A DNA stretch of 64,000 nt, taken from positions 23,539-87,538 of the forward strand of contig CANQRM010000012.1 of NCBI GenBank assembly GCA_947626265.1. The letters run 5' to 3'. The position numbers were made by a program, and so were the translations under genes. Below are positions 5,596 to 25,375 of this stretch, in pieces. The first letter of the stretch is position 1, and every line of letters starts with the position of its first letter. The stretch is from an uncultured Oscillospiraceae bacterium. Lineage in GTDB: Bacteria > Bacillota > Clostridia > Oscillospirales > Oscillospiraceae. Under the pieces are notes generated by a model. The model made no database searches. It saw only the letters and a program-made list of their open reading frames with translations, and was not told the origin of the DNA.

Positions 5596-5624
5596 ATTGT
5601 ACCACATCTTTTACACATTGTAAA
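5596..5624 (-). promoter_or_regulatory. Sigma70/SigA-type promoter
   Basis: On minus strand TTTACA - 17 nt - TACAAT, just upstream of the 5469-1062 operon. Confidence 0.6.
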
Positions 5625-5789
5625 GAAAAATTTTAGGAAACAAAAGCTTTTGTTGCAAAGTTCACAAAAATCCCGTAGGCAAGATGCGCAGTCGCCCTTC
5701 CCTCGTTGCACTCAAGACACCATATGGAGCACAATAGAGCCCCAGGACAATATAGTCCTTTTTCTTATATTTTGACAACAGCCTGATAC

Positions 5790-6468: not shown

Positions 6469-6761
6469 GCCCGCATCAGCAGTATCCAAGCGACATGGTC
6501 ATTCAAATAGCCCCTATCCATGAGTTGCCAGTTCATTGATGAGTACTTCTATGTATGGATTTGGATGACCTCTGTCACCCGGCCGACTATGACGCCTTTG
6601 CCACGAGGCCGGTTCATATGCCACCAGAGGAAACGTTTACCACTCAATGTAACAGGTAGTGTAAGAACGCCAAACTTTTCTCTTTCACAATTTAACCCAT
6701 TGACAAACGTATTTCCGTGTGATAACGTCATATCAAACTTGGGGCGATATGGAGGTTTAAC

Positions 6762-7007
6762 ATGAAGTCAACTGGGATCGTCCGAGAGGTGGATGAGCTC
6801 GGGCGTATTGTGTTGCCCATTGAGCTGCGCCGCACCATGGACATTGCGGTACGCGATCCCCTGGAGGTTTACATGGCCGAGAATACGGTCATATTGAAAA
6901 AGCATCAGCCTGCGTGCGTATTCTGCAACAGTTATAAAGACCTCACCAGCTATAAAGGAAAGAATGTCTGCTCCTCATGCGTTGCCGTTCCGCTCAAAAT
7001 GGCATAG
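6762..7007 (+). CDS. AbrB/SpoVT-type transcriptional regulator with C-terminal CxxC pair
   Basis: MKSTGIVREVDELGRIVLPIELRRTMDI... plus CVFCN...CSSC. Confidence 0.92.
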   Translation: MKSTGIVREVDELGRIVLPIELRRTMDIAVRDPLEVYMAENTVILKKHQPACVFCNSYKDLTSYKGKNVCSSCVAVPLKMA

Positions 7008-7049
7008 CTGGCTACATCAGACTACACTTATTCCCTTGGTTTCTTCATA

Positions 7050-7075
7050 GCGTCCGCCTTCTGGCGGGCGCTCTT
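7050..7075 (+). terminator. Rho-independent terminator after abrB copy 1
   Basis: gcgtccgcc-ttct-ggcgggcgc followed by ctcttttct. Confidence 0.7.
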
Positions 7076-7173
7076 TTCTATTCATTCGGTGTCTTTCTGA
7101 AATATATAGGCGTCACAGATTGAAGCGCACACTGCTTATCATTATGCCAGCGCCGGAGGCAGGCCACTGACGA

Positions 7174-7790
7174 TCAGTAGTACATCAGCCCGGGCATCTT
7201 TGCCAGGTCGCGGCCGTCGCAGGGCATCTTCAAATCGCCCATGAGCACTGCATAGGTGAGCGCTTTTTTCCGTATCTTTCCCGCACAGCCTCCACGGCAT
7301 CCTACAGTCGTTCCCTGCGCTCTATGCACTGCGTGTCCACAAACAATGATAACTGGTCCGGCGTCTCTTGCAGCACCAAATTGGTGGTACGCACGGTGAC
7401 AGCCCGGACCTTTGTTGTCCATGGGTACCGTTCGCAGAACAGCTTATATGCGCCGGAAACTATCTCGCTGGGCAGCTGCGTCATAAACGGCAGATGCCCC
7501 CTGTACTGGGTGCCCATGAGGTCATTGCCGCGGACCCAAAGCTCCACGCCTCGCGCTGTCAGGCCGTGGACACGTAGCCGGTGCCCAATGTCCTGGGACA
7601 GCTCCAGAATCACCTTCCATACCTCCTCCCTGTTCAGCAGATCCGCCACACAGGTGATACCGTGCCCGATGGATTTGAACGGCGACTCATAGTCCTTATG
7701 CATGACCCGAGAGGTATCCGTCCCGCTGGCATATCGCCAAAGCGCTAGGCCGTTGACGCCCACCCATGAGCCGCTGGAATAATTACGGGT
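7174..7790 (-). pseudogene. Y-family DNA polymerase (DinB/UmuC-like) C-terminal remnant, frameshifted
   Basis: MGVNGLALWRYASGTDTSRVMHKDYESPFKSIGHGITCVADLLNREEVWKVILELSQDIGHRLR... and, in another frame, KKALTYAVLMGDLKMPCDGRDLAKMPGLMY. N-terminal catalytic region absent. Confidence 0.75.
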
Positions 7791-7851
7791 CCGCGCCTAC
7801 TATATCCCCTATGCTGGGTTTATTGAAATTATACACGCACGTCTCGGCTAA

Positions 7852-8535
7852 TTAATTGAAAACAATGCTCAGCAACTCTCTCAGATCATGAATTATATAG
7901 TTTATCTTTATATCGCTATCAAACACTTGCATGTTCGGGCTATACCAACATGTATCAATTCCCGCATTTATGCCACCTTGAATGTCAGATGTAAGAGAAT
8001 CACCGACAATTAAAATATGATCATCCTGTGTGCAACCAATAATTTTAAATGCTTCAGCGAAAAACCGAGGATCAGGTTTCGCATATCCTACTTCCTCAGA
8101 AATAACCAAAAAAGACATATACTTTCCAATCTCAGAATTCTGAATTCTAGCAATTTGTGTGGGTCCTACGCCGTTAGTCACTATGGATAAATTGGTGCTA
8201 GCATATAAGATTTTGCATACTTCGCCAGCATATGGCATAAGCCAACATTGATTTTGAAGACTAAGTTGATATATGCGCTCCGCATCCATTCCATCAATAA
8301 CATATCCCAAAGAATCAAACAGTATTTTGAAACGTTGCGACTGTACACTTTCTTTTGAAAGAACACCTTTCTCAAATTGATGCCATAGAGCATGATTTAT
8401 AATCAGATACTTCTCATAAATTGTCTCGGTGAAATCAATCCCGTAATGATGCAACACATTTGAAAAACTATGGAATTGTGCCGCATCAAAATCCAACAAT
8501 GTATTATCTGCATCAAATAAAATATAATTATACAT
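7852..8535 (-). CDS. HAD-superfamily hydrolase, YjjG-like nucleotidase
   Basis: ILFDADNTLLDFD, IVTNGVGPTQIARI, YAKPDPRFF, LIVGDSLTSDIQGGINAG. Confidence 0.85.
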   Translation of the reverse strand: MYNYILFDADNTLLDFDAAQFHSFSNVLHHYGIDFTETIYEKYLIINHALWHQFEKGVLSKESVQSQRFKILFDSLGYVIDGMDAERIYQLSLQNQCWLMPYAGEVCKILYASTNLSIVTNGVGPTQIARIQNSEIGKYMSFLVISEEVGYAKPDPRFFAEAFKIIGCTQDDHILIVGDSLTSDIQGGINAGIDTCWYSPNMQVFDSDIKINYIIHDLRELLSIVFN

Positions 8536-8552
8536 AGCAACACCAACTTTAA

Positions 8553-9782
8553 TTAATACAGTATTTCAAACCCTTTATTTCTCTGCTTTTTAGAATACTC
8601 TAATAAATATGAATATCTCTTCTGTCTTATTTTTTGCTCAATAATGCCAACTGAATTTTCAATTGATCGAATAGTGTCAAACAACACCTTGTCTTTCCCG
8701 CAATAATAGTCAAGGCAAAGTACCTGAATATAGTCCAGTTTTTGCGCCTCTGAAAAAATGCCAACTTGATACAATTGGTTTAAAAGGGCATCTTTTGCTT
8801 TTTCTAAAGTTTCTATTAGTAGTAAATACAATGACAAGGCACGATTCAACTTTTTTATTGCAGTTTCTATATCTCTACTCACATGCTTGCTTTCGACATC
8901 CTGGACTAAATAAATGAATGCATTAACCTGCTCAATAAAGTTTTGCCAATCTGAATCTTGACTTAATGCATATATTTCATTCCACTCCATGTCGCAAATT
9001 GCGTTATACAGAGATTTATAAGATTTTGAAAGGAGACTGATTAACCACTGCCCGGTTAACTGATTTAGTATTAAAGAAATAGGAACTGCGTTACTCGTAT
9101 TTGCGTTTGCAACAGCAAATGCTCTGTCCAAAATTGTGGATACAATTAATCGTTCCTGTTGGCTAGGGTTAAATTCTTCAATTACTTTGTCCTCGACAAC
9201 AGCCCGTTGGAACAGGTTGTTACGGTCTAGAGAACAAGCTTGAATTCGGTTTGCAATACCAGTAAAAATAATTCGTCTATTTGGTTCTAAAGCTCTGCAT
9301 ATATCATCATAATGCAATTCTATAGAGCGGCTCACTTCCTCTCTAAAAAGAGTATCTGTGTCGTGCTGCTTTCCAATATAAATATCTGAACCATTAATTG
9401 AAAGGTATTCTGGAATGTATATGCCAAAAAAGTTTTCTGGTCTCCCACTTTCGTATGCTTGGTGTTCAAAGTGTCCCAATAATTGCTCTTCAGACATCCC
9501 TTTCGAAAGGACTTTCTTTCGATTGTTAAAATAATTAACAGGGTTCCCCTTATGTTTCTCATCTAACTGTAGCTGGATTATTCCACACTTCCAAAAGTCA
9601 TCTAGCTTCTTCAGCAGAGTTGTCGTATTGGACACTTTGATGCACGCTGGCACAGACATGCATAATTTATCCCGAGCAAAAATCAGCAAATCGAAACGGA
9701 GGCGTAGAGCGAGTAAATCAAAACTTTGATGCCCACTTGTAACTTGGTCTAGATAGTCAATATAAAACAACATTGTATTCAC
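8553..9782 (-). CDS. Hypothetical protein (409 aa), directly upstream of the YjjG-like gene
   Basis: Long ORF, 17-nt gap to the next gene, no recognised family. Confidence 0.75.
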   Translation of the reverse strand: MNTMLFYIDYLDQVTSGHQSFDLLALRLRFDLLIFARDKLCMSVPACIKVSNTTTLLKKLDDFWKCGIIQLQLDEKHKGNPVNYFNNRKKVLSKGMSEEQLLGHFEHQAYESGRPENFFGIYIPEYLSINGSDIYIGKQHDTDTLFREEVSRSIELHYDDICRALEPNRRIIFTGIANRIQACSLDRNNLFQRAVVEDKVIEEFNPSQQERLIVSTILDRAFAVANANTSNAVPISLILNQLTGQWLISLLSKSYKSLYNAICDMEWNEIYALSQDSDWQNFIEQVNAFIYLVQDVESKHVSRDIETAIKKLNRALSLYLLLIETLEKAKDALLNQLYQVGIFSEAQKLDYIQVLCLDYYCGKDKVLFDTIRSIENSVGIIEQKIRQKRYSYLLEYSKKQRNKGFEILY

Positions 9783-10261
9783 TCTTTCCTGTCAAAAATA
9801 ACCTACACGTGCAACATGGCAAGCCAATCTTTCAAATTCAAGACTTCAATGCCTTATATACGAATTCTTCGAGTGAATAGATTCGGTCTCCGAAGCAACT
9901 ATTCTTGCACACAAGGTATATCACGCCATATCGTTTCAGTTCCAAATTGACCTACAGTACGCAATAGCAATGGTTTGAAGCAACACATCTCTGCCCATCG
10001 TTGCGAGTTCATCCGTAACACGATGCATGTCCTCTATCGTAGGGAACGAATCAGGTGGGTCAAGGATTTGCTCTCCTTCTCCCAATACCTCTTTTTATAA
10101 TGTTCATAATACACTTCCATCAACAAGCAAGGCACCCCCATAGGATGTATGATCCCTTATTTATGTTTTCTCCTCACACTCTCTGGCAAAAATAATATCT
10201 TAATAGGGCAAAAATGGTTGGCCAATATTGCTTCTGGGTAACTATTTAATCGCGAACCGTT

Positions 10262-12817
10262 TTACCCGGCCCCAGAGGCCGTCTGAGTATATCTCGGGTC
10301 CACTTGGGCCGGCTTTTTGTCTTTCCGCGGCGGGCCCCACATCATGCCGATGTTCTCTAAGTATTTGATCTGTTCTCTATCCAGTTTTCCGGCCCAATAC
10401 GCCTTGCGTATGTATTTCACCCACCAGCCAAGGTGCAGGCCATCGCCGGTCATATAGTCATAGGGAACATTCAAATCGCCGTTTTCCTGATAGTAATCCA
10501 GCGCCGCCTGATAGTTTCGCTCCCGCCTGTCTGACGCTCCATCCCAAACCATCCCTATGGATTCCAAACATTTGATTTGTTCGGTGGTCAGTTTATTCGC
10601 CCTGTACCATTTGCGTATCCTCTGTATCCATGATCCCAGGCGGATTCCATCCGTGGAGACATATCTCGATGCAACCTTAAGTTCTCCGTTTTCCTGATAA
10701 AACTGTCGCGCAGCCTCGTAATATTTCTCCCATTGATTCTCCTGCATATCCCATGTGACACCAATGTTCTCCAGCCGCTCGATGCGTTCTTTTTCCAAAA
10801 CGCCCTTTTTGTAGTCGCGGCGCATCCGCTGGAGCCATTTTCCCAGCTTGACATCCTCCTTCGTCACATAAGCGTAAGGTATATCCAGATTCCCATGCTC
10901 ATGATAATATAGCACTGCCAACTGGTACTGCTGTTCCCAGCGCGTCTGCTCCACATTCCAGACCATGCCGAGCGCCTCCAGGCGCTGGATCTTGTCCGCA
11001 TCCAGCCTACCAGCTTTATAGTCCCGTCGCACACATTGAATCCAGCACCCAAGGCGTGTTCCATCTGAAGAAGAATACTGTTTGGGCACTTCAAGGTCAC
11101 CGTATTCCGCATAGTATTCCCTCGCAGCCTGAAATTTCCGCTCCCATTGGAATTCATCCACGTCCCAAACCATGCCGAGCTCATCTAGCAGGGCAATGCG
11201 CTCCTTGGTCAAATACCGCCCTTTGCCGTTCCGCTTACGCTGTCCCTTCAATGAGCTGAGCCATTCCCCCAGCTTCACGCCGTCCGGTGACACGTAGAGT
11301 GCAGGAACGCAGAGATGCCCAAATTCCTGTAAATAAGCTTTTGCCGCCCCATAATACTCCGTCCATCGGTCCTGTTCCCGGACGGTCCACAGCATCCCGA
11401 TACTGTCCAGCAGCGCGATCCTCTCCTCATTGAGTATGCCGCGCTGCAGCCCCTTTCGGACGGCACGCTGGGTGTAGATCCAAGTGCCCAGAGAATACCC
11501 GTCCTCCGTCTTATATGCAAAGGGAACATTCAAATCGCCCTTTGTCTCATAGTACGCCTTCGCACAGCGGTACATATCCTCCCAGGAAGCGGTCAGGACA
11601 TTGTTCAGCCGCTCAAAGAGCTGGCGGCAATCCCGCACCTCGTCGATAATCTGAAAACGCCGGCGCAGTTCCTCCTGCTCCTGTTTGCTGCCGCCAGTCC
11701 GCAGGACGGCCTCCTCAAACTCCTGCTCCAACGCGCCAATGCTGCTCAGATTTTCGATATTGTTTACCACGTCGAAAATCACGGGCGTCTTTTCACTCCC
11801 TGCCGAGAGAGTCCGACCGATCTGCTGCTTATAGATTATGGGAGAGACTGTCGGTCGGAACAGGATCACGCCGTCCACATCTGCTACGTGGATACCCTCA
11901 TTGAGCATATCAATGGTGAAAAGCAGCTTCAGATGGTCACTCTCATCCTCCCTGAACCGTGCAAACGCCTCTCTGGTGGCCGGGTCCGGGGAGTAGGCAC
12001 GATAGATATGGGGCTGGGTGTCGAACTGTGAAAACCACTCCGGCACACAGGCGATCATGCGGTTCATATGCGCCACGTTGGAACAGAACGCGATATATTT
12101 CCCGTGGCGGTCTGGCATATGGCGGGCGAACACTACATCCAGCCCGTCTGCGTCCTCCAGGCTCCGGCGGAGCGTCTTCAACATCTCCATTGCCCGGTCA
12201 CGGCGCACAGGGTCGCGCAGCTTATCCACACGGGCCTCATATTTTTCAAGGTCCTGCTGGAAGGAGTAGACGGAGAGCACGTACTTCGGGGGCTTCAGGA
12301 TATTCCGTGCGATGGCCTCGCCCAAGGTGATCTCAGACGCGATGCAACCGTCGAACAACTCCTTCGCCATATCCCGCTGATTGTCCAGAAACCGAATGTT
12401 TGTCGCAGAAAGGCCCAGAATGGGTACAAGGGGATAGGCATTGAGGAGCGCTTGGATGCCTACGCCCCATTGCTCCGCGCCGCAACGATGGAACTCGTCC
12501 AGGATGATAAGATCGGGCTTGATGGCAGCGATCTCGTCCTCCTCCATCGTCATGAGCCGGGCGTATGTAATAAATGTGATGTTCTCCGGCACAGACCCGC
12601 TGTCCGCTGCCAAATTCTCCAGCTGGGTCTTGAATATGTACTCGGAAGGGGAGAGCCAGCAGATGTTTTTTTCAGGGAAGTCCTCGCAGAACTTGAAACC
12701 AATAAAGGATTTTCCCGTCCCGGTGGGGTGGATCACGGCAGCTTTTCCAGTTTCCTTGAGCATGGCGAGGGCAGCGTGATACGCACGGTCGTTATGTTCA
12801 AACAATGTGATGCTCAT
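10262..12817 (-). CDS. SF2 DEAD/DEAH-type helicase with six C-terminal helicase-associated (HA) repeats
   Basis: HPTGTGKSFIG (Walker A), ILDEFHRCGAEQW (DEFH), QQIGRTLSAG; then six ~70-aa repeats of form W...Y.AA..YY.E.G.L.VP..Y...DG..LG.W....R........L..E.I..L...GM.W. Confidence 0.92.
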   Translation of the reverse strand: MSITLFEHNDRAYHAALAMLKETGKAAVIHPTGTGKSFIGFKFCEDFPEKNICWLSPSEYIFKTQLENLAADSGSVPENITFITYARLMTMEEDEIAAIKPDLIILDEFHRCGAEQWGVGIQALLNAYPLVPILGLSATNIRFLDNQRDMAKELFDGCIASEITLGEAIARNILKPPKYVLSVYSFQQDLEKYEARVDKLRDPVRRDRAMEMLKTLRRSLEDADGLDVVFARHMPDRHGKYIAFCSNVAHMNRMIACVPEWFSQFDTQPHIYRAYSPDPATREAFARFREDESDHLKLLFTIDMLNEGIHVADVDGVILFRPTVSPIIYKQQIGRTLSAGSEKTPVIFDVVNNIENLSSIGALEQEFEEAVLRTGGSKQEQEELRRRFQIIDEVRDCRQLFERLNNVLTASWEDMYRCAKAYYETKGDLNVPFAYKTEDGYSLGTWIYTQRAVRKGLQRGILNEERIALLDSIGMLWTVREQDRWTEYYGAAKAYLQEFGHLCVPALYVSPDGVKLGEWLSSLKGQRKRNGKGRYLTKERIALLDELGMVWDVDEFQWERKFQAAREYYAEYGDLEVPKQYSSSDGTRLGCWIQCVRRDYKAGRLDADKIQRLEALGMVWNVEQTRWEQQYQLAVLYYHEHGNLDIPYAYVTKEDVKLGKWLQRMRRDYKKGVLEKERIERLENIGVTWDMQENQWEKYYEAARQFYQENGELKVASRYVSTDGIRLGSWIQRIRKWYRANKLTTEQIKCLESIGMVWDGASDRRERNYQAALDYYQENGDLNVPYDYMTGDGLHLGWWVKYIRKAYWAGKLDREQIKYLENIGMMWGPPRKDKKPAQVDPRYTQTASGAG

Positions 12818-13399: not shown

Positions 13400-13942
13400 T
13401 CAGTCCTCAGGCGTATGCAACACCGCTCTGGCCTTTTCCACGGCGTCAAAAAAGCCTCTGTATTCCTCCGGTGCCCAGCGCTCCCGTATGCGCTGCTGCA
13501 CGCCGCCGGGGCCAATGACCGACGGCACCGAAAGAGCCACGTTCCGCACGCCGTGCTCTCCCATCAGCGGCGAGCTTACGCACGCGATCGTGGGGCGCTG
13601 GTTGAGGATGGCGGCGGCAAGCTGGCAGACGCAGGTGGCGATGCCATAGTGGCTCCTGCCCTTGACGCAGATGATCTCTGTGCCCATAGTCCTGGTCTTT
13701 TCCGCAAGCGCAGCACGGACAGCCTCATTCCATGGGACTGCCGCCTCTTTGCAGTAATCCCCGATAGGGATGCCGTGACGGATATCCCAGGCCTCGCCCT
13801 CCGCCTTGCTCCTGCTGCGGTCTCTTAACACGATCTCCCTGGCTATATCCCGCAGGGACAGCGCATAGGCAACCGTAGCGCTCACATAGCCCGCTCCGAT
13901 GACAGCCACTTTTCGATTGCCCAGCGTATAAGCCCTGGTCAA
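13400..13942 (-). pseudogene. L-lactate/malate dehydrogenase-like protein with large internal deletion
   Basis: VAVIGAGYVSATVAYALSLRDIAREIVLRDRSRSKAEGEAWDIRHGIP joins directly to ...NEAVRAALAEKTRTMGTEII..RSHYGIATCV...VRNVALSVPSVIGPGGVQQ; middle catalytic region missing. Confidence 0.8.
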
Positions 13943-13979: not shown

Positions 13980-15194
13980 TCACCCTATCGACACTGTCCG
14001 GGTCAGGCGGCTCACTAGGTCGTACCCGTCCCAGATAAGGTCGAAATCCATCGTCTTTCCGATGGGCACGATACGGTCTATGCCCCGGACGCCGGACGCC
14101 AGCAGGGGCCAGAACATGTCCTTGCCCCCCAGATAGGAGATAGTCTGGCACCGGCGATCATCACACAGCGGCTTGAGCTCCAGGATATCGCCGCAGTCAT
14201 ACTCAAAGAAGTACCCAGAGTTGTCCTTCAGGTCCATGATGCCGCCGTCAAGGATCGGGACATGTACCCGCACCAGCAGGTTGTCCTCATGGGGTGCCAC
14301 CCGGACGCCCTCACGGCTCACGGCGGCGAGATACCCGCTGGTCAGCTTATTGACACCCTGAATGGACTGGAACGTGTACTTTTTGCGGACCAGGTCATGG
14401 AGCCGCCGCCAGAATTCCGCCTTGGCCTCCTCCCGTCGTTCGCCCGTCCATATGACCATCCGGGGGCTGGTGCAGGCGTTCTGGTCGGTGAGATAGGTAT
14501 CGTTATAGAAATCCTGCGCGATGTGGTCCTTATCCTCCCGGGAAAGGTACTTGTCGGCGTCGATCACCGCCAGGGAGAACCGGTCGGCAAAGGTGACTTC
14601 GCTGCCTCTGGGCGGCAGGGGCGACTTGCGCACCTCCGCGATGGTGGCGTCGCCGCCCCAGATGACGCGGGTGTCGGCCATGGCGGATAGGGCGTCGTTC
14701 ACCGCCTTGTCCCGGCCATAGCGCACCAGGCAGACCCGCTTTTTCATCTCGGCATACTCCGGCATAGCCAGCACGGCGGCGATGGCCCGGTCGATGATAT
14801 CCACCTGTGGAAAGTCCTTGCTGGGCACACGCACGATATTGACGTTGCCGGTCAGGAGCCCCGCCGCCAGGGAGTAGGCGTAATTCACCGGCACATTGGA
14901 GGGCGCGATATGAAAGGTCACGCCCCGGCCCAGCTGGAATGCTCCGTCCTCCCGGCTAAACCGCTCCATCAGCTTTTTCGTGGAGGCGCTGCGTATCCAG
15001 AAAGCGAAGGTGACCACGTCGGGATAGGCCTTGGCCTCCCCATCCGCCAAGAGCGCCTTCGCCACGGCGTTCAGGAAGTCAAGAATGCGCCCGTCAAAGG
15101 GCGGCAGTGCCGGCACGGCCGGCATAGCGGAGGCGATATCCGCGCTACCCACCAGGTATGTGACGCCGGTCAGTTCATGCAAATTTTGCCGCAT
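13980..15194 (-). CDS. LuxC-family acyl-CoA/acyl-protein reductase
   Basis: GVTFHIAPSNVPVNYAYSLAAGLLTGNVNIVRVPSKDF...DTRVIWGGDATI...TDQNACTSPRMVIW (candidate catalytic Cys). Confidence 0.88.
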   Translation of the reverse strand: MRQNLHELTGVTYLVGSADIASAMPAVPALPPFDGRILDFLNAVAKALLADGEAKAYPDVVTFAFWIRSASTKKLMERFSREDGAFQLGRGVTFHIAPSNVPVNYAYSLAAGLLTGNVNIVRVPSKDFPQVDIIDRAIAAVLAMPEYAEMKKRVCLVRYGRDKAVNDALSAMADTRVIWGGDATIAEVRKSPLPPRGSEVTFADRFSLAVIDADKYLSREDKDHIAQDFYNDTYLTDQNACTSPRMVIWTGERREEAKAEFWRRLHDLVRKKYTFQSIQGVNKLTSGYLAAVSREGVRVAPHEDNLLVRVHVPILDGGIMDLKDNSGYFFEYDCGDILELKPLCDDRRCQTISYLGGKDMFWPLLASGVRGIDRIVPIGKTMDFDLIWDGYDLVSRLTRTVSIG

Positions 15195-16266
15195 AGGTAT
15201 CGCTGCACCCCCGTATCTCCGCGTTTTTCAGCCGCCCGTTGATCTTGAAGTATTTTCCCTTCCGGCCGCAGGGACAGTCGTCCTCTCCCAGCAGTATGCC
15301 CTCGTCCTCAGTGAGCAGCGAGTGGCCCGGATAGGACTCAGGGATGGCGGACACCACCTGGATGATTCCCGGCTCCCCCACAGCGCACACGCCGAAATCC
15401 AGGGGCCGGCGCATGATGACGTCCGAGAAGACGCTGGCGTGGAGATGGCCGCACTCGCACTGCATGTAGATGCAGCCGGTCTGCTCCACCATGCCGTAGT
15501 AGTCGTGTACACGGTCGATGCCGCATACGTCCCGGAGGCGGTCATGAAACTCCTGGGGGCTCACGGCCTCATTGGCCAGTTTCTTCCACCCGCCGCCGTG
15601 GATAAGGATGCCCCGGCTGAGGTCGAAAGTGACCCCCTGTTCCTTCAGCCGCACCAACTCTTTATAAAAGTGCTGCCACACCATGAAGGTGAAACCGAAA
15701 AACAGGATGTCCTGGCCCCGGAACTTCTCCAGAAACGCCGCCAGCGCCTCCGTGTCCAGGCGCATATCGTCGTCCAGGGCGTATATCTTCCGGGCGCCGA
15801 AAATAGAAAAGCCCAGGATACCGGCACCTCGTGCGGAAAACATGTTTCTATCCTTCACCACCGAGGGGCAGTCCAGCACGATCATGGGCAGCCGGGAGGC
15901 GCCCAGAAAGTCCGACACGATCTTCACCATGGCCTTCTGCTGGTTGGCGGAGGTGGTCCTGTCCAGGTATATCCGGGACACGGCCTGGCCTGTGGTGCCG
16001 GAGGAGGTCATGGTCTTCACCACGTCCTCCTGGGGAACGCTCTTGAGGCTCAGCTCCTTGAAAAGCCGTACCGGCAGAAAGGGCAAGTCCTCATAGCCTG
16101 TCACGCTCCCGGCGTCATAGCCCACGCTGTCCAGCAACCGGCGGTACTCCGGGCACCGGTCCCGGTGATGCTCCGTCAACTCCAGGAGCCGCTGTGTCAA
16201 CAGCGCGTGTTTCTCCTCATGCCCCAGTGAATAGGGCGGTATCTGCAAAAGCTCCTCAAACGTCAT
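15175..16266 (-). CDS. LuxE-family acyl-protein synthetase
   Basis: TSSGTTGQAVSRIYLDRTTSANQQKAMVKIVSDFLG, HDYYGMVEQTGCIYMQCECGHLHAS; overlaps luxC-like ORF by 20 nt. Confidence 0.87.
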   Translation of the reverse strand: MTFEELLQIPPYSLGHEEKHALLTQRLLELTEHHRDRCPEYRRLLDSVGYDAGSVTGYEDLPFLPVRLFKELSLKSVPQEDVVKTMTSSGTTGQAVSRIYLDRTTSANQQKAMVKIVSDFLGASRLPMIVLDCPSVVKDRNMFSARGAGILGFSIFGARKIYALDDDMRLDTEALAAFLEKFRGQDILFFGFTFMVWQHFYKELVRLKEQGVTFDLSRGILIHGGGWKKLANEAVSPQEFHDRLRDVCGIDRVHDYYGMVEQTGCIYMQCECGHLHASVFSDVIMRRPLDFGVCAVGEPGIIQVVSAIPESYPGHSLLTEDEGILLGEDDCPCGRKGKYFKINGRLKNAEIRGCSDTYAAKFA

Positions 16267-16957
16267 AGTTCCTCAACCTCTCGTTGACCACGTCCGCGAC
16301 CTCCCGCTCATGCTCCCGCAGGAAGAAATGGCCGCCGTCATATTCCAGAATGTCGCATCTGCCGGTAAAGACCTGCCTCCACTTTTCCATGTCCCCCCGG
16401 GGTATGTCCGCCGGCGAGAAAAGCACTGTGGCCGGTATGTCCGTCACAAAGCCCAGCCGGCCGAAATCATAATCCATGATCAGCTCATAGTCCGCACGGT
16501 AAATGGGCATATAGACGCGCCAGAAGGTCGGGCTGTTGACCAGCTTCTCGGGCAAGCCGCCGAAGCGGACGGTCCACTGCCTGACCGTCTCGTCCGTGTC
16601 TGGTCCGTCAGCGCCGGTCCGCTCCTCCAGGACACAGGGGCCATGGGAGGCCAGGAACACATGGGCGGGCGGCGGCAGTTCTCCCCTGGCCTGGATCATC
16701 TTCGTCACCTCTGCGGCCGCCAGGGCGCCCATGCTGTAGCCGAACAGCCCGTAGTGTGCCTCTCCGGCCTGGGTCTTGACCTGGCTGTACATATCCGCCG
16801 TGAGCTCGTCAAAGTCCCCGTAGAAGGGCTCATGCCGCCGCTCCATATGGCCGGAATACTCCAGCTTCACGACCTCTATGTCCGGGCTTAGATATGAAGC
16901 AAGTCCGTTGAAGAAGGACCCGCTGCCGCCCACAAAAGTAAAGAAGAAAAGCCGCAT
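16256..16957 (-). CDS. Type II (GrsT-like) alpha/beta-hydrolase thioesterase
   Basis: FTFVGGSGSFFNGLASYL, YGLFGYSMGALAAAEV (GxSxG), GGHFFLREH. Confidence 0.88.
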   Translation of the reverse strand: MRLFFFTFVGGSGSFFNGLASYLSPDIEVVKLEYSGHMERRHEPFYGDFDELTADMYSQVKTQAGEAHYGLFGYSMGALAAAEVTKMIQARGELPPPAHVFLASHGPCVLEERTGADGPDTDETVRQWTVRFGGLPEKLVNSPTFWRVYMPIYRADYELIMDYDFGRLGFVTDIPATVLFSPADIPRGDMEKWRQVFTGRCDILEYDGGHFFLREHEREVADVVNERLRNYDV

Positions 16958-16969
16958 AGCCCCTCCCGT

Positions 16970-18403
16970 TCATTGGTAATACTTCGCCAGGTCCTTATAG
17001 AGCGTCTTGCCGGCGTCGTTCTTCGGTATCTCATCGATGACGATCACCTGGAACGCCGCGTGATTGAGCCCGGTCTTGGCCACGATGAAGCCCTTCACCT
17101 CATCAGCCAGGGCGGCATCCGTCACAAACAGATACATGTGGTCGTCCACGCCGGCGCTGGCGCAGTCGATGCCGCCGAACTGGCCCTTGATGAGCCTGTC
17201 CACCTCGTCCAGGTTGACGCGATTGCCGTAGATCTTCAGAAACCGCTTCTTCCGGCCCACGATGTAGTAATACCCGTCCTCGTCGAACTGGGCCATGTCC
17301 CCGGTCTCCAGCATGCCGTGGCGCTCGTCGCCCTTGATAAGGTCTTCGCCCCGCTCGGCATAGCCCAAGGTCACGTTGGGCCCCTCGTAGACCAGCTCCC
17401 CGGTCACATAGGGCTCGGTGATGGTCTCACCGCCGGCGCCCACCAGGCGGAACGTGCCGCCGGGGATGGCGACACCCATGGAGCCGCAGCGCTCCACCGC
17501 CTTGTCCGCGGGAAGATAGCCCATGCGGGCGGTGGCCTCGCACTGGCCGTACATGACCACGAACTTTTTGCCCTTCTCGGCGGCGTACTCGGCGAATTTC
17601 TTGTGCAGCTCCGGTGTAAGCTTGCCCCCGGCCTGGGTCATGGTACGCAGGCTGGGCAGGTCCATGCGGAAGAACCGCAGCCGCTCCAGCATCTCATAGG
17701 TATAGGGCACACCGCCGAAGGATGTGGCACCCTGGGCCTTGAAAAACTGCCAGAACTCCCGCTGCATGAGGCCCTTGTCCGTGACCAGCAGCGTGGCCCC
17801 CACCAGCAGATGGCTGTTGATGATGGAAAGACCGTAGGTATAGTTCATGGGCAGGGTGGTGATGGGCCTCTCGGTCTCGTCCAGCTCCAGATACTGCACG
17901 ATGGACCGGGCGTTGGCCAGGATGTTGGCGTAGCTCTGGCGCACGAATTTCGGGCTGCCGGTGGAGCCGGAGGTGGTGAGCAGAAGGCCCAGCTCCGGGA
18001 ACAGCGGATATTCGGTGGGATAGCCGGTCTTCAACAGGCTGTAGCCATAGGCACTGTACACGCTCTTCATGCCGCCGAAGTCCCCCGCCTGTTCCGCCGG
18101 GACCCAGAGGTACTTGGGCTCATAGGCCGCCAGCAACTCGTCCAGCAGCGCCCGCTCCAAATGGGCGTTCAGCAGCACGGGCACGATACCGGCGTTCATG
18201 AAGGACACATACCCCGCTATGGAGCCTACGGTGTTTGTACACAGGCAGAACACCAAGCAACGGCCGCCAGCCGCGGCGGAGATGCACTCTCCCTCTGCGG
18301 CCAGCTCGCCATAGGTGACCGCCGTGCCGAACTCGTCCACCATGGCGGTGCAATCATGATATTTTTCCAGCTCCCACATCATTTTTATTTCTCCTTTGCC
18401 CAT
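16970..18403 (-). CDS. AMP-dependent acyl/aryl ligase
   Basis: LLTTSGSTGSPKFVRQS, VMYGQCEATARMGYL, ETGDMAQFDEDGYYYIVGRKKRFLKIYGNRVNLDEVD, PKNDAGKTLYKDL. Confidence 0.92.
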   Translation of the reverse strand: MGKGEIKMMWELEKYHDCTAMVDEFGTAVTYGELAAEGECISAAAGGRCLVFCLCTNTVGSIAGYVSFMNAGIVPVLLNAHLERALLDELLAAYEPKYLWVPAEQAGDFGGMKSVYSAYGYSLLKTGYPTEYPLFPELGLLLTTSGSTGSPKFVRQSYANILANARSIVQYLELDETERPITTLPMNYTYGLSIINSHLLVGATLLVTDKGLMQREFWQFFKAQGATSFGGVPYTYEMLERLRFFRMDLPSLRTMTQAGGKLTPELHKKFAEYAAEKGKKFVVMYGQCEATARMGYLPADKAVERCGSMGVAIPGGTFRLVGAGGETITEPYVTGELVYEGPNVTLGYAERGEDLIKGDERHGMLETGDMAQFDEDGYYYIVGRKKRFLKIYGNRVNLDEVDRLIKGQFGGIDCASAGVDDHMYLFVTDAALADEVKGFIVAKTGLNHAAFQVIVIDEIPKNDAGKTLYKDLAKYYQ

Positions 18404-18433
18404 AGAGTTTTCCCGATTGGACAGACTAAAATA

Positions 18434-19393
18434 TTAAGATCGCTGAGGCGCCAGCATTGAATCATCCAGTACCAGTGTGAATGCTGCCTTGCAGATTAGA
18501 ATGCCTTCTGCCGAGCATATCACACCTTCATATTTTGCGATCCCATGTCTATAAGATTTTAATGTTGCCCATGTGGATATCGTATCGCCGGGTCTGACGG
18601 TGCCAAATAACTCACACGAATCGCAACCATGAAATATCATTAGTTTCTTCGTAACTTCCGGCATTGTTGTGACGGCAAAGACACCAGTTTGCATCAATGC
18701 TTCCAGAAGTATGCACTCCGGCACATATGGGTTGCCCGGACAGCGCATTTTAAAAAACCAATCCAGTGACGAGGCAGTTTTCTCGCCCAAGGAGCACTTC
18801 CCGCGATCCACTCTGGCTTTGTCAATAAACCTATATTCGATAGGGTCAGCCAAGTAATCATCCATATTCTTGTAATCGATATATAACTCGGGCTCCACCC
18901 CTTTCCATTCAACTTTTCTGTCTGCTTTTGCAGCCTTCTCCGGCAACACGAGCGTAAAATCCATGGCACAGATCAGTGTCTCATGCCCATCGTCACACCG
19001 TTTTATTTCTCCATGAAATACAGCGGTCCCCAGCTTGAACGATTGAAGCGATGCATAGGTATGAAGAATATCTCCCGGACGCACAGGTTTATATATGCGC
19101 AGGGACTTGCATCCCTGAAACATCATGACTTTATCACTGATCTCCGGCATAGTCGTGACGACCAGCACCCCTGTCTGTTGTATGGCTTCCATCAAAAAGA
19201 CGCCCGGCATGACTGGATCTCCCGGAAAATGTATTTTGAAATACCAGTCCTGCGATGACGCGGCTTTGGTTCCCCTTGCTTCCTTTCCCGGTATTACCTC
19301 ACACTTATCGATAAAACGGTACTCAAGCGGTATAGCAGAATAGCGGGACAGATTTTTCCAATCGACTATGATCGGAACATTCTCTTCGCCCAT
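18434..19393 (-). CDS. Double hot-dog FabA/FabZ-like dehydratase
   Basis: Two repeats: ...DWYFKIHFPGDPVMPGVFLMEAIQQTGVLVVTTMPE... and ...DWFFKMRCPGNPYVPECILLEALMQTGVFAVTTMPE.... Confidence 0.88.
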   Translation of the reverse strand: MGEENVPIIVDWKNLSRYSAIPLEYRFIDKCEVIPGKEARGTKAASSQDWYFKIHFPGDPVMPGVFLMEAIQQTGVLVVTTMPEISDKVMMFQGCKSLRIYKPVRPGDILHTYASLQSFKLGTAVFHGEIKRCDDGHETLICAMDFTLVLPEKAAKADRKVEWKGVEPELYIDYKNMDDYLADPIEYRFIDKARVDRGKCSLGEKTASSLDWFFKMRCPGNPYVPECILLEALMQTGVFAVTTMPEVTKKLMIFHGCDSCELFGTVRPGDTISTWATLKSYRHGIAKYEGVICSAEGILICKAAFTLVLDDSMLAPQRS

Positions 19394-19467
19394 AGCCTGT
19401 TTCCTCCAGATTCAAATATCAAACTGGACTTAGCATGACCATGGGCGGTTCCTCAAGCGGTCATTGT

Positions 19468-20562
19468 CTAAGTCTGTAATTTATCGGCACCCTCAGGCTG
19501 CCCGTTCAGGCCGGTTTCTTTTCCGGAGCTGGAAATATAATCTTCTTTCTTGAATAACCCCCCCCCACTTACTAAATCGAACATAGAGGTACTGCGGCCC
19601 AGATATTTCTCCCGGAATTTCCGGTTCTGCGCCGCCAGACATACAGGGGTCGTCTCCCCAAAATATTTGATGCTGAATCCGTAATCAACGATCTCTTTCA
19701 AAGACTGCTCCTTCACATTTCCGATACTGATATCTATGAACGGGCAGGGCTGGACGTCGCCCAGCGGCGTGACGAACAGCCTGTTCACCGACCAGCACCC
19801 GGAGATGCGCTCTCGGTTCGGGTCATAGAGATCCCACGTATCAAAGGTCGTATTCTTATACTTCTTGCGCAGCTCGCTGAATATCTTCATATCCTCTGCG
19901 TCCATATAGTTATCCTTCCATACGCCATAGGGCATCGCCAGGATAAAGTAGACGCCGAAATCGTTCTCCTGTAGATAGTCCAAAAACTCATACAGCTCAG
20001 GTGAATGGGAATTGTGGTGACCAAAAATGGGCTGCGCCCAGGAGTCCATCCCGGCAGCCTTGACATTTTTCAGCGCCTCCAGCGCCCGCTTATGCGAACC
20101 CTTTACATGGCGTGACTGGTCATGCTCGGCCTCATTGAGGCTGGATATACTAACGCCCACGCTGTCCAGACCCGCCGCGGCCAGGCGCTCCGCCACCTCC
20201 GGCGTCATGAACCACCCGTTGGTGATCAGCACCATGTGGAACCGCTCCGGCCCAAAGGCGTTCATGACCTCGATGAATGAGTCCACATTCACGAGAAGCT
20301 CCCCGCCCTGGAACACTATCTCCCAGATGCCGAGCGCGTCCGCCTCGTCCGCAAGTTTCTTGATCTCCTCCGTGGACAGATGCTCCTTGTTGTATTTCAC
20401 CTCGTTCTGCTCATAGCAGAAATCGCACCTGAAGTTACAGATATTGTGATGGACAAAAGTCAGGCTCCTGGGGATATTCCCGATCTGATACCCATTCCTC
20501 CGCAGCTTGCGGTAAAAGCTGTTCGCCTTTCCGACCACGATCGGCTTATTCATCACGCCCAT
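19468..20562 (-). CDS. Radical SAM protein
   Basis: HHNICNFRCDFCYEQNEV (CxxxCxxC), VFQGGELLVNVDSF, C-terminal CW...CPF.... Confidence 0.9.
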   Translation of the reverse strand: MGVMNKPIVVGKANSFYRKLRRNGYQIGNIPRSLTFVHHNICNFRCDFCYEQNEVKYNKEHLSTEEIKKLADEADALGIWEIVFQGGELLVNVDSFIEVMNAFGPERFHMVLITNGWFMTPEVAERLAAAGLDSVGVSISSLNEAEHDQSRHVKGSHKRALEALKNVKAAGMDSWAQPIFGHHNSHSPELYEFLDYLQENDFGVYFILAMPYGVWKDNYMDAEDMKIFSELRKKYKNTTFDTWDLYDPNRERISGCWSVNRLFVTPLGDVQPCPFIDISIGNVKEQSLKEIVDYGFSIKYFGETTPVCLAAQNRKFREKYLGRSTSMFDLVSGGGLFKKEDYISSSGKETGLNGQPEGADKLQT

Positions 20563-20577
20563 ATGTTTTTTCCTCCT

Positions 20578-21549
20578 TCATTCTTGCAGAGCATCCCAGA
20601 TTCTCTCTGTCGCAGCGTCCACCGTCAGGCCGCACTGCTCCAGAAGATATGAGTAACTGCCGTTTTTCAGATAGGCGTCCGGCATTCCAAGGCTTATGGC
20701 CCTTGGACGGACACCCTCTCCGGCGATCACCTGAGCCACAGCCGAGCCCAGACCGCCGATAACACTGTGTTCTTCCATCGTCACGATGAGCCCTGACCTT
20801 TTTGCGGCCCGGCGGACCGCCTCCGTATCCAAGGGCTTAATCGTATGCATATCCAGCACCGCGCAACCGGCCCCGCGCTCTCTCAGCCTGTCACTGACCT
20901 CTGCGGCCATGTGCGCCATACTGCCGGCTGCAATGATCGTTACGTCCTCCCCTTCCCGGAGAGATATGGCTTTGCCGATCTTGAGATCGATGTCGCCGTT
21001 GTGTATGTTTGGAAACCCCGCTTCACCGGTGAGACGGATGTACACCGGCCCTTCATAAGCCGCCGCAGCCTCTACCGCTTTGACGACCTCCACACAGTCG
21101 GCCGGTGACAGAACGACCATCCCAGGGATCGCACGCATAAGGGCCACATCGTCTGCCCCGAAATGGGAATTGCCCAGGCCGCCCACGGATACGCCGCTGC
21201 TCAGGCCCACTGCTTTGATATTCAGGTGCATGTAGCCCATGTTCATGCGGACCTGGTCCGCGCACCGCATCGTGATGAACGGCGCGAAGGACGACGCGAA
21301 GGGGATGAGCCCCTCTTTGGCAAGCCCGGCGGAGACACCTATCAAGTCCTGCTCCGCAATGCCCACATTCAGATACCGCTCGGGAGCATCTGCCATCAGG
21401 CGGCCAAGCCCGGAAGATGTCCCCAGGTCTGCAGACAGGGCGTATACCCTCTCGTCCCGACCTATCAGCTCATACAAAGCCAGTCCATAGACCGCCCGCG
21501 GTCCCAGGCGGTTCCACTGGCGGATGTTTCTCGCTGTGATCTCCATCAT
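20578..21549 (-). CDS. Transketolase C-terminal subunit
   Basis: YALSADLGTSSGLGRLMADAPERYLNVGIAEQDLIGVSAGLAKEGLIPFASSFAPFITMRCADQVR.... Confidence 0.93.
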   Translation of the reverse strand: MMEITARNIRQWNRLGPRAVYGLALYELIGRDERVYALSADLGTSSGLGRLMADAPERYLNVGIAEQDLIGVSAGLAKEGLIPFASSFAPFITMRCADQVRMNMGYMHLNIKAVGLSSGVSVGGLGNSHFGADDVALMRAIPGMVVLSPADCVEVVKAVEAAAAYEGPVYIRLTGEAGFPNIHNGDIDLKIGKAISLREGEDVTIIAAGSMAHMAAEVSDRLRERGAGCAVLDMHTIKPLDTEAVRRAAKRSGLIVTMEEHSVIGGLGSAVAQVIAGEGVRPRAISLGMPDAYLKNGSYSYLLEQCGLTVDAATERIWDALQE

Positions 21550-22361
21550 GCTCCCGCCTCCAATTCCCGGCAGGCCTGCTCATACAGCTTGTCCGTCAGG
21601 CGATTGTGGTGCCACTCCCCGTTGTTCTCCATAAAGGATATCCCATGGCCCTTGACTGTGTGGCCGATGATCACCCGGGGATGACCGCTCCGCGGGGCCG
21701 TGTTATAGGCTCCAAGTATCTCAGCAACGTCATGCCCGTTTATCTCCAGCGCATCCCAGCCAAAGCTCTCCCATATGTCTTTCAGCCGCATATGGACGAT
21801 CTGTCCGCTGCCGCCGTCGCTCTGCATGTCGTTATCGTCGATGATCGCTGTCAGGTTGTCCAGGCCCCACTGAGAGGCCAGCATAGCCGCCTCCCATACA
21901 GCGCCCTCGTTGCACTCTCCGTTCCCCAGAAGTACGTATATGCGATGCTTCTGTCCTTTGAGTCTTGCGGCTTTCGCCATGCCGACCGCCATGCCGATCC
22001 CCTGGCCCAGGGAACCGTTGGAGCTCTCAATGCCAAGTTCCAGCGCCATGGTCGGATGTGCGCCCAAAACTGTGCCGTCCTGCTGAAAAGTGCTCAGAAG
22101 CTGGTCGGAAATGAAGCCGCACTCCGCCAGCACGGCATAGAAAGCCAGCACACAGTGCCCCTTGCTCAAAATGAAACGGTCACGCTCCGGCCACTGCGGA
22201 TTTGACGGGTCATAACGAATCACGCTCTTATATAGAACGGTCAGCAGCTCCGCCATGGACAGCGAGCCGCCCAGATGGGTCCTCCCGCCGCAGGCATTCG
22301 CCATGGTGAGCATACGCTTTTTCACGTTAAGAACAGCACTTCTCAGCTCGTCCTCTCCCAT
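21546..22361 (-). CDS. Transketolase N-terminal subunit
   Basis: GGRTHLGGSLSMAELLTVLY, GSLGQGIGMAVGMAKA, LLGNGECNEGAVWEAAMLASQWGLDNLTAIIDDNDMQ (TPP-binding); 4-nt overlap with next gene. Confidence 0.93.
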   Translation of the reverse strand: MGEDELRSAVLNVKKRMLTMANACGGRTHLGGSLSMAELLTVLYKSVIRYDPSNPQWPERDRFILSKGHCVLAFYAVLAECGFISDQLLSTFQQDGTVLGAHPTMALELGIESSNGSLGQGIGMAVGMAKAARLKGQKHRIYVLLGNGECNEGAVWEAAMLASQWGLDNLTAIIDDNDMQSDGGSGQIVHMRLKDIWESFGWDALEINGHDVAEILGAYNTAPRSGHPRVIIGHTVKGHGISFMENNGEWHHNRLTDKLYEQACRELEAGA

Positions 22362-22394
22362 TGGGCTTACCTCCTTCCCTTAATACATAAAGAT

Positions 22395-23141
22395 TCACCG
22401 CATGCCCCCGTCGATCCGCAGGACCTGGCCGGTCACATAGGATGAGCGATCAGACAAGAGGTACGTCACCATATCCGCTACCTCCGACACTGTGCCTTTT
22501 CTCTTCAGTGCGGTCGCAGCAAGGACCTCTTCCGCCATCGCCGAGGCGATCTGTCCGCCCATGTCCGTATCTATGATCCCCGGCGCGACAGCATTGACCC
22601 GGATACCGAACGAGGCCAGTTCGCTGGCCAGTTTTCGCGTAGCGCCGATCACCGCCGCTTTGCTGGATACATAAGAAAGCTGTGCCGGCTCGCCGCCCAG
22701 CGCCGCTACAGACGCGATGTTGACGATACTGCCTGACCGGTTCCGCATGAGGTTTTTCAAAAGCCTCTGCGTGAAAAAGAGGGGCCCAAAAAAGTTGACC
22801 TCGAATGTCTCCCGTATCTCCTGTATGCCGGTCATGGGGAAGGATCGGACGGGTCCAACGACGCCCGCGTTGTTGACGATGCCGCTGATGGGCCGCTTTT
22901 CCGACAGGATAAGCGAGGCAGCGTTTTTGATGCTCTCCTCGTCGGAGACGTCCAGCGTCACAGGCACCGCCGGAACACCATTCTCTTCTCCAAGTGTTCG
23001 GAGCCATGCCTCTGCAGCGCTGTCCACTGTCCGCATACACGCCCATACACCGGCGCCGCTGCAGGCGCATGCTTCCGCGATCGCCCTGCCTATGCCACGG
23101 TTGGCGCCTGTCACCACAATGTTCTTTCCTGAAAGCAGCAT
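22395..23141 (-). CDS. SDR-family 3-oxoacyl-ACP reductase-like
   Basis: VVTGANRGIGRAIAEA, NNAG, SIVNIASVAA...YVSSKAAVIG, VAPGIIDTDM. Confidence 0.92.
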   Translation of the reverse strand: MLLSGKNIVVTGANRGIGRAIAEACACSGAGVWACMRTVDSAAEAWLRTLGEENGVPAVPVTLDVSDEESIKNAASLILSEKRPISGIVNNAGVVGPVRSFPMTGIQEIRETFEVNFFGPLFFTQRLLKNLMRNRSGSIVNIASVAALGGEPAQLSYVSSKAAVIGATRKLASELASFGIRVNAVAPGIIDTDMGGQIASAMAEEVLAATALKRKGTVSEVADMVTYLLSDRSSYVTGQVLRIDGGMR

Positions 23142-23143
23142 CG

Positions 23144-23614
23144 TCACGTCCCCTTGTTTACATTTGGGATATCGTCCAGGACCGCCAATACGAACTCCGC
23201 CTCGCAACACACCGTATCGCCTACACTGATCTTCCCACCGATCGTCGCGATGCCGCGTTTGAACCTGTTTATCTCCGTGTCCACGCGGATCGTATCGCCT
23301 GGCCGGATGTGCCCGGTGAATTTAGCCTCCGTCACCTTCACCACATTGGTGGTCTTGTCCTTGTATCCATCCAGCAGCTTGATGGCCAAAGCGCTCGTCT
23401 GGAACATCGTCTCCAGTTGGAGGACGCCCGGCATCATGGGATCGCCGGGAAAATGGCAATCAAAAAACCATGCGTCCTCCGGTATCGTTCTCTCCATGCG
23501 GCTGCTCTTCCCCGGCTCGACCAAGACCTCATCAACGAAAAGAAGGGGTTCTCTGTTTTTCAGGTATGTATATATACCCTCGATATCCAGTTTTACCAAC
23601 TTTCTCTCCGTCAC
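23144..23614 (-). CDS. FabZ-like 3-hydroxyacyl-ACP dehydratase
   Basis: FFDCHFPGDPMMPGVLQLETMFQTSALAI. Confidence 0.88.
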   Translation of the reverse strand: MTERKLVKLDIEGIYTYLKNREPLLFVDEVLVEPGKSSRMERTIPEDAWFFDCHFPGDPMMPGVLQLETMFQTSALAIKLLDGYKDKTTNVVKVTEAKFTGHIRPGDTIRVDTEINRFKRGIATIGGKISVGDTVCCEAEFVLAVLDDIPNVNKGT

Positions 23615-23847
23615 AGTTCCACGTGATACTTTCTCAGTATCTCCATGCCCTTCTTATAGCTAGAGAAATCGATGATATCATCGGTTTCCATCTCGATATC
23701 GAACGCATCCTCCAACTCCGCGACAAGGCTCATATGCCCAACGCTGTCCCACTCCTTGATGTCCTGGTAGTTCAGGTCATCAAGGATATTCTCGTCAGCA
23801 TTAAGTGCAGTAATAAAGGCCTGTCTGTACTTTTCAAGATTTGTCAT
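23611..23847 (-). CDS. Acyl carrier protein 1
   Basis: 78 aa with DSVGHMSLVAELEDAFDIEM phosphopantetheine-site motif (Ser of DSVGH). Confidence 0.87.
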   Translation of the reverse strand: MTNLEKYRQAFITALNADENILDDLNYQDIKEWDSVGHMSLVAELEDAFDIEMETDDIIDFSSYKKGMEILRKYHVEL

Positions 23848-24279: not shown

Positions 24280-25338
24280 TCACGGTGCCGTCACTGTGCA
24301 GTCATTATCATCATCATAGTAGTTCCTTGTAAAAAACATATCGGCGAGCATATCCTTGGCCAGAAATATATCCGCTACGCCCCAGGATAGGCCCACACCG
24401 AGTCCAGAGGCCAAAACATGAACATCGCTCCCATGCTCCCGGTTCAATATATCTGTCGCTATCACGATCGGGATAGACGCCGCACTGGTATTCCCAAACT
24501 TTGTGAGTGTCAACGGCACCTTCTCCGGGGGCAGCTTACACCATTTGATGATCCGGCCAATGACCTTTTCATTGGCTTGATAAAACGCATAGAGATCAAT
24601 GTCGTCCCTCTGGATATCAAAGCGTTCCATAAACTCTATGATCGATTTTGGGACCTCTCGGATAGAAAAGGCAAATACATCTACACTGGAAGTCTTTACG
24701 TGGTTATTCTCTCCATGTGGATGCCGCTCGCCACCGTCCCTGGCAAAAATACTCTTGAACTTATTTCCGTCTGTCAGCAGGAGATAATGGATCGGATAAG
24801 CAGCCCTTTCATCTTTTTCCAGTGCTGTAGCCGTCCCAGCATCACCATATAACAATCCTGATGTACTTTGGGGATCGACCGCCTTACTGGAATTCTCTCC
24901 GCACAGAAGCAGCGCCCTCTTCACATCACTCGTTTGCATAAGAGAGCCGATCGTTGCCAGACCATATACATAGGCGGAGCAGCCCATATTGATATCCTCT
25001 GCGATACACTCAACAGATAACCCGAGGCGATGCTGAAGGACACATGCCGTCGCGGGAGCCAAATAATCAAAAGATGAAGAAATATAAATGAGTGCTCCTA
25101 TGCTCTCCCGCTCCCAGCCCAGTTTATTCAGCAGCGCCTCCGCCGCCTCATAGCAAAGGTCTGAGGCAAGCTGTTTCTCCAGTGTCCGGCAGGTAGACGT
25201 GACGCCTGTCCCCTCCTCAAAACGCTTCAGCTCTTCCGCGTCGAACAGATCTGTTCTCTCCCTGGTAAATACTCTGTTGTCCGGGAGCGCACAGGTGATC
25301 CCTCTCAGCGAAACATTGTGGATCGTTCCAAATGGCAT
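24280..25338 (-). CDS. FabH-like (KASIII) 3-oxoacyl-ACP synthase
   Basis: IGALIYISSSFDYLAPATACVLQHRLGL...DINMGCSAYVYGL (active-site Cys), LLCGENSSKAVDP, GLLYGDAGTATALE, FGNTSAASIPIV. Confidence 0.9.
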   Translation of the reverse strand: MPFGTIHNVSLRGITCALPDNRVFTRERTDLFDAEELKRFEEGTGVTSTCRTLEKQLASDLCYEAAEALLNKLGWERESIGALIYISSSFDYLAPATACVLQHRLGLSVECIAEDINMGCSAYVYGLATIGSLMQTSDVKRALLLCGENSSKAVDPQSTSGLLYGDAGTATALEKDERAAYPIHYLLLTDGNKFKSIFARDGGERHPHGENNHVKTSSVDVFAFSIREVPKSIIEFMERFDIQRDDIDLYAFYQANEKVIGRIIKWCKLPPEKVPLTLTKFGNTSAASIPIVIATDILNREHGSDVHVLASGLGVGLSWGVADIFLAKDMLADMFFTRNYYDDDNDCTVTAP

Positions 25339-25375
25339 ATGAGTTTTCCTCCTCTCTCTTATTTCGGGCAGGCGT

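Follow-up and report, generated by a model that had tools for sequence, protein, structure and literature searches.

A 64,000-nucleotide stretch of DNA (hereafter the window) from an uncultured Oscillospiraceae bacterium (Clostridia; GCA_947626265.1, contig CANQRM010000012.1, positions 23,539-87,538 of the forward strand) harbours a cassette of eleven closely spaced genes on the minus strand (13980-23847), which encodes relatives of the LuxC and LuxE enzymes together with a split transketolase (TK). In the direction of transcription, the cassette encodes an acyl carrier protein (ACP), a FabZ-type protein, a short-chain dehydrogenase/reductase (SDR), the TK subunits TK-N and TK-C, a radical S-adenosylmethionine (SAM) protein, a double FabZ-type protein, an AMP ligase, a thioesterase, LuxE and LuxC. 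It is likely that the conversion of an acid to an aldehyde by these enzymes serves biosynthesis. The complete route that we favour, in which a small acid is converted to an aldehyde and extended by two carbon atoms by the TK to give a dihydroxyketone-type precursor or substituent of a surface polysaccharide, has in our judgement slightly less than an even chance of being correct. The original prediction for this region recognised a set of four genes for a LuxC-type reductase, a LuxE-type synthetase, a hydrolase and an AMP ligase without luciferase genes. The four open reading frames, which overlap or sit a few bases apart, lie where they had been placed and their Pfam matches (LuxC, LuxE, Thioesterase and AMP-binding) all exceed the curated cut-offs. 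The set is real, and it forms the downstream end of the eleven-gene run.

Luminous bacteria use the LuxC/LuxE pair to make the aldehyde fuel for light, and their enzymes act on long-chain substrates. The LuxC-type acyl reductase of the window (13980-15194, minus strand; 404 amino acids; PF05893, E 2.5e-27), which would form the aldehyde, resembles the LuxC of the solved LuxC-LuxE structure 7xc6 in the Protein Data Bank (PDB) both in sequence and in fold. The cysteine of the QNACTS motif had been named as the candidate catalytic residue. It corresponds to Cys241 within DQNACTSP, the DQxAC motif is kept in 75/75 relatives, and the DQNAC of the window protein (residues 237-241) aligns with the DQQAC of 7xc6. 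The best PDB match of a single-chain model of LuxC (pLDDT 94.7, pTM 0.90) is 7xc6_A (TM 0.76 by query length), and the next-best matches are NAD(P)-bound aldehyde dehydrogenases; because of these matches, the model indicates that the cofactor fold is kept at the level of the overall fold. Loss of the cysteine or of the NADPH site from the alignment, which had been put forward as evidence against a reductase, was therefore not observed, for the NADPH site at the level of the predicted fold. The LuxE-type acyl-protein synthetase (15175-16266, minus strand; 363 amino acids; PF04443, E 2e-54), which resembles the LuxE of 7xc6, keeps the TSSGTTG adenylation motif, and its C-terminal acyl cysteine Cys354 (RGCS) is shared by 85/85 relatives and corresponds in the alignment to the GCS of 7xc6_E. 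Judged from these residues, the pair is intact and the formation of an aldehyde is well supported.

An alignment of LuxE was scanned against one genome per species (84,980 species), which yielded at least 544 relatives, and the best 80 were examined together with their flanking regions. Nine of the 80 are natural single-protein LuxE-LuxC fusions. The model of one such fusion (pTM 0.79) consists of two folded domains and a disordered linker (residues 348-375) containing the acyl-Cys region, which would fit a mobile acyl arm. The window pair has its fold, the LuxC catalytic cysteine, the LuxE acyl cysteine and the adenylation motif in common with the enzymes of luminous bacteria. However, with 41.4 of 750 bits for LuxC and 67.2 of 550 bits for LuxE, the scores are far below the NCBIfam equivalog cut-offs for the luminous-bacteria enzymes, and in the window the pair comes with an ACP, an AMP ligase and a TK. 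The very long branches to the luminous enzymes in the LuxE tree precluded its use for placement. No luciferase-family match (PF00296) was found anywhere in the genome, which extends the earlier observation that luxA- and luxB-like genes are absent. Moreover, the hydrolase (16256-16957, minus strand; 233 amino acids) occupies the position of LuxD, as previously noted, but it is a type II-like thioesterase with the motifs GYSMG and GGH (PF00975, E 6e-31). Since no LuxD-type family was matched, homology to LuxD was rejected. The suggestion that the aldehyde or alcohol is made for biosynthesis rather than for light has gained from the intact residues, the lack of a luciferase family, the polysaccharide context and the conservation across many phyla, although it had overlooked the likely user of the aldehyde, the TK.

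The two TK subunits, TK-C (20578-21549, minus strand; PF02779/PF02780) and the thiamine-diphosphate subunit TK-N (21546-22361, minus strand; PF00456), show the layout of a split transketolase, in which thiamine binding and the pyrimidine/C-terminal part reside on separate subunits. The nearest solved structures are those of the split-chain transketolase from Carboxydothermus hydrogenoformans (PDB 6yaj for TK-C and 6yak for TK-N), which has the same two-subunit layout but retains a GED motif and the phosphate-site histidine that are both missing from the cassette TK. The genomes of the group have two to three TK-C-like genes each, and the window genome has an additional ordinary split TK (G000 C62). 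In the tree, the cassette TK-Cs form one clade (42/43 rows, support 100/99) apart from the ordinary split TKs, covering Bacillota, Bacteroidota, Synergistota, Spirochaetota and Pseudomonadota. The acceptor-site aspartate (D469 in Escherichia coli, D477 in yeast) is kept in none of 46 cassette TKs, 29 of which have a leucine instead, compared with 19/27 other split TKs from the relatives. Likewise, the phosphate-site histidine, eight residues N-terminal of the aspartate, is present in 0/46 cassette TKs and in 24/27 of the others. The window TK-C has a leucine at the aspartate position and a serine at the histidine position. Thus, the cassette TK belongs to a dedicated clade with an altered acceptor site. 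It has been reported for engineered TKs of E. coli and yeast that altering this aspartate raises the activity toward aliphatic aldehydes (PMC6310800, PMC5573996). From this analogy and from the loss of both residues, we infer that the cassette TK may accept an aldehyde lacking the usual 2-hydroxyl and phosphate groups, and LuxC of the same operon would make such an aldehyde. Alternatively, the TK-like pair could pass a two-carbon glycolyl unit on to the ACP, a reaction that has been proposed for some antibiotic pathways, with LuxC and LuxE acting on the product. This idea would be in line with the TK genes often being located immediately 5' of the ACP gene, but Pfam found no lipoyl or other acyl-transfer domain in TK-N or TK-C and the closest enzymes of solved structure are split transketolases of the ordinary type, which makes it very unlikely.

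The gene content around LuxE was counted in those 70 of the 80 loci that are at least 10 kb long, and families were assigned by profile or sequence likeness. The 80 relatives come chiefly from Lachnospiraceae and Oscillospiraceae, and they also include Treponema, Brevinematales, Bacteroidales, Synergistales, Smithella, Gastranaerophilales, Alphaproteobacteria and Kosakonia. The AMP ligase accompanies LuxE in 70/70 loci, the ACP in 64/70 and a separate LuxC in 63/70, most of the rest being the LuxE-LuxC fusions. The thioesterase was detected in 21/70, NeuB in 19/70 and an acetolactate-synthase-like thiamine diphosphate (ThDP) enzyme in 11/70 loci. Both TK subunits are encoded around LuxE in 35/70 loci, far more often than the roughly 2% of random 21-kb stretches in which a TK would be expected from two to three TK-C-like genes per genome. 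The common order is SDR-TK-N-TK-C-ACP-AMP ligase-(thioesterase)-LuxE-LuxC. Of 391 sampled genomes of the class, 18 had a LuxE match with an E value of at most 1e-40, and the TK pair was present in 5/5 examined loci with a LuxE at least 63% identical to that of the window (two of the five are near copies). Strict mutual exclusion of the TK and the acetolactate-synthase-like ThDP enzyme held in the 70 loci but was broken in the loci L171-L173 and is not claimed. In one locus (L030, 3118-7739), genes for NeuB, the acetolactate-synthase-like ThDP enzyme and FabZ replace the TK, and this trio recurs elsewhere. A further locus, which belongs to a same-genus genome (L026 in G027, 1213-12415), has two LuxE-LuxC pairs (LuxE 93% and 54% identity) in one cluster with SDRs, an ACP and a TK, and double LuxE-LuxC sets are likewise found in L083, L091, L108 and L109.

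The same counts bear on an explanation in which the SDR converts the aldehyde made by LuxC and LuxE to an alcohol, or a DegT aminotransferase aminates it, and the TK acts in a different branch of the pathway leading to the glycan. An SDR is present in 54/70 and a DegT aminotransferase in 33/70 loci, and some loci are devoid of any TK, as this explanation would allow. However, in nearly all loci having both, TK-C and LuxE are at most six genes apart on the same strand, and the TK constitutes a dedicated clade. This explanation is therefore rather unlikely.

The kind of cassette is already known. Flagellin glycosylation islands have been reported to contain a five-gene core in Enterobacteriaceae (PMC4875605) and in Aeromonas (PMC7874193); in the flagellin islands of Dickeya zeae EC1 and EC2, this core occurs together with tktA-tktB (PMC4522980, PMC7575072). 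The luciferase-free set of the original prediction does exist, but cassettes without luciferase from flagellin glycosylation islands had been published before. The Dickeya set (ACP, SDR, AMP ligase, LuxE, LuxC and split TK) matches that of the window. It adjoins flagellin genes and no radical SAM, FabZ or thioesterase gene was reported there, whereas the neighbours of the window cassette are polysaccharide export and transferase genes. The window version differs by the radical SAM protein, the two FabZ-type proteins, the thioesterase and the polysaccharide locus. Kosakonia (L113) possesses the same kind of set, with a LuxE that is 67% identical to that of the window; the E. coli genomes contain nothing that closely matches the Kosakonia cassette. 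In the Aeromonas group II flagellin island, the five-gene core (ACP, 3-oxoacyl-ACP reductase, AMP synthetase, LuxE and LuxC) matches by annotation only (PMC7874193). The flagellin glycan of Aeromonas has an unknown 102 Da unit (PMC7874193), and a link between this unit and the cassette is only an idea. In the literature that was searched, which left out most subscription journals, no paper linking LuxC to a TK was found.

All four of these studies use the label 'fatty acid' for the cassette genes. A lipid on the glycan, a so-called 'liposugar', was suggested in three of the studies (PMC4875605, PMC7874193, PMC7575072). According to this model, LuxC and LuxE reduce a longer acyl chain to a fatty aldehyde or alcohol, which becomes the lipid substituent of the glycan, and the TK makes a separate sugar. 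The FabZ-type and FabG-like proteins of the cassette would suit this model, as would the long-chain substrates of the luminous enzymes. However, a ketosynthase is not part of the conserved cassette (KASIII-like genes are present in 7/70 loci), and the model leaves the altered acceptor site of the TK unexplained. A further objection comes from a second group of Clostridia (L176-L182), which has the ACP-AMP ligase-LuxE-LuxC core in common with the window (LuxE 36-55% identical) in a catabolic setting and without a TK. There, the core adjoins a 4-hydroxybutyryl-CoA dehydratase (PDB 1u8v, E 1e-238) in 6/7 loci and a 4-hydroxybutyrate CoA-transferase (PDB 3gk7) in 5/7 loci. In L178, it is also located beside acyl-CoA dehydrogenase-, electron-transfer flavoprotein- and thiolase-like genes, and most of these loci carry a sigma-54 activator. 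The substrate is probably a C4 acid such as succinate, which the core would reduce to the semialdehyde, and the core is possibly an unrecognised acid reductase of butyrate-forming Clostridia. Because the core adjoins 4-hydroxybutyrate enzymes in these bacteria, a long-chain aldehyde, as assumed by analogy with the lux system, is doubtful and the context argues for short acids. Altogether, the liposugar model is unlikely to apply.

For the route that we favour, the following steps can be envisaged. The AMP ligase (16970-18403, minus strand; 477 amino acids; PF00501, E 6e-38) would load the acid onto the ACP, and the SDR, the FabZ-type proteins and the radical SAM enzyme might alter the acyl group, in whatever order, before the thioesterase releases or edits it. 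LuxE would then adenylate the acyl group, hold it on Cys354 and hand it to Cys241 of LuxC, which would reduce it to the aldehyde with NAD(P)H; homology, fold and residues all lend good support to this step. Because of the gene linkage and the changed acceptor site, the dedicated split TK is proposed to add a two-carbon ketol unit to the aldehyde acceptor, yielding a dihydroxyketone that an SDR may reduce. Finally, the product may enter an exported glycan, as suggested by the surface-glycan gene context. Several observations weigh against this route. The pair of adenylating enzymes (AMP ligase and LuxE) and the requirement for an ACP are not fully accounted for, the best-studied TK changes conferring activity on aliphatic substrates are to Glu and Thr and not to Leu, and the Aeromonas cassette has been described without a TK (PMC7874193). 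Moreover, 24/70 loci have neither the TK pair nor the acetolactate-synthase-like ThDP enzyme within the stretch examined, and the 80 loci, which are the ones closest to the window, share ancestry and do not sample the relatives evenly.

It is also possible, albeit somewhat doubtful, that we are dealing with a widespread, horizontally shared route to sugar-like glycan units from acyl groups, in which the acceptor-altered TK clade joins the aldehyde made by LuxE and LuxC to a sugar-derived two-carbon unit. If true, this would be a natural acyl-to-ketose route and a meeting point of fatty-acid and sugar chemistry. The cassette genes occur in flagellin islands of several Proteobacteria and in surface-glycan loci of gut bacteria, and the papers cited above file them as fatty-acid genes with no function shown. 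Our reading predicts an aldehyde and its subsequent two-carbon extension by a TK with a natural change of the acceptor-site aspartate. It might aid the assignment of unexplained units in bacterial glycans, and natural transketolases acting on aliphatic aldehydes would become available.

The remaining cassette genes are all located on the minus strand. The ACP with a DSVG motif, which is encoded by the first gene (23611-23847), scores 20.7 bits for PF00550, slightly under the cut-off of 20.8, and a DSxG-type motif is present in 65/67 relatives. It is followed by the FabZ-type dehydratase-fold protein (23144-23614; PF07977) and the FabG-like SDR (22395-23141; PF13561), the start of which was placed at an ATG 3' of the FabZ gene. 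The radical SAM/SPASM protein (19468-20562; PF04055 and PF13186; CNFRCDFC) is present in only 5/70 loci. The double FabZ-type protein (18434-19393) matches PF07977 in two stretches. It has HFPG at position 55 but RCPG (RCPGNP) at position 217, and because the second half thus lacks the histidine of HFPG, one half is probably non-catalytic. The nucleophile motif of the thioesterase is found in 24/24 relatives. Among the 80 loci, the thioesterase (23 loci) and a metallo-beta-lactamase-fold hydrolase (7 loci) never occur together, suggesting that hydrolases of the two folds fill one common role.

A same-genus genome (G032, loci L032/L040) contains all eleven genes in identical order with 70-94% identity among different neighbours, and the limits of the cassette were set at eleven genes for this reason. 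This finding, together with the eleven open genes and their conserved main motifs, makes it extremely unlikely that the cassette is a decaying remnant without function, as the adjacent dehydrogenase gene, which is short by about 140 residues, might indicate. The latter gene (13400-13942, minus strand; PF00056/PF02866) codes for a broken lactate/malate dehydrogenase-type protein that has suffered an in-frame loss including the first GEHG motif when compared with L026 and ten other loci. Since the full-length homologues in these loci mostly follow directly after LuxC, the gene probably represents an accessory member of the cassette that has been disrupted in the window. Scans for promoters and terminators gave nothing above chance level, and Rfam and tRNA scans of the window gave no matches.

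Upstream of the cassette, minus-strand genes encode a KASIII-like protein (24280-25431; PF08541/PF08545) and an MBOAT O-acyltransferase (25376-26983; PF03062). Both were rejected as cassette members because neither is found in the stretch read next to the L032 cassette and both are rare in other loci. The KASIII-like protein has YQAN in place of the HQAN of solved KASIII enzymes and of most KASIII-like proteins from related loci, while its Cys and Asn motifs are kept. Two mutually related proteins with weak DUF1574/ILEI matches are encoded further upstream. The gene at 28674-30725, which adjoins a gene for a related protein and an MBOAT gene, encodes a putative glycan-modifying protein that carries a ricin-type beta-trefoil lectin domain at its C terminus. 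According to profile matches, the genes at 32058-44632 (minus strand) encode GlfT2-like (galactofuranosyl)transferases, nucleotidyltransferases, UDP-galactopyranose mutase and an ABC-2 exporter, and constitute a galactofuranose-type surface-polysaccharide cluster. Beside this cluster, three consecutive phage-integrase-family genes (44620-47945) have a counterpart in a row of same-sized genes in L027 and may bring about a site-specific switching of genes for the cell surface. At 57906-60838, two diverged transposase genes of the IS110 family are located near each other. Downstream of the cassette, a helicase with six helicase-associated (HA, PF03457) repeats is encoded at 10262-12817.

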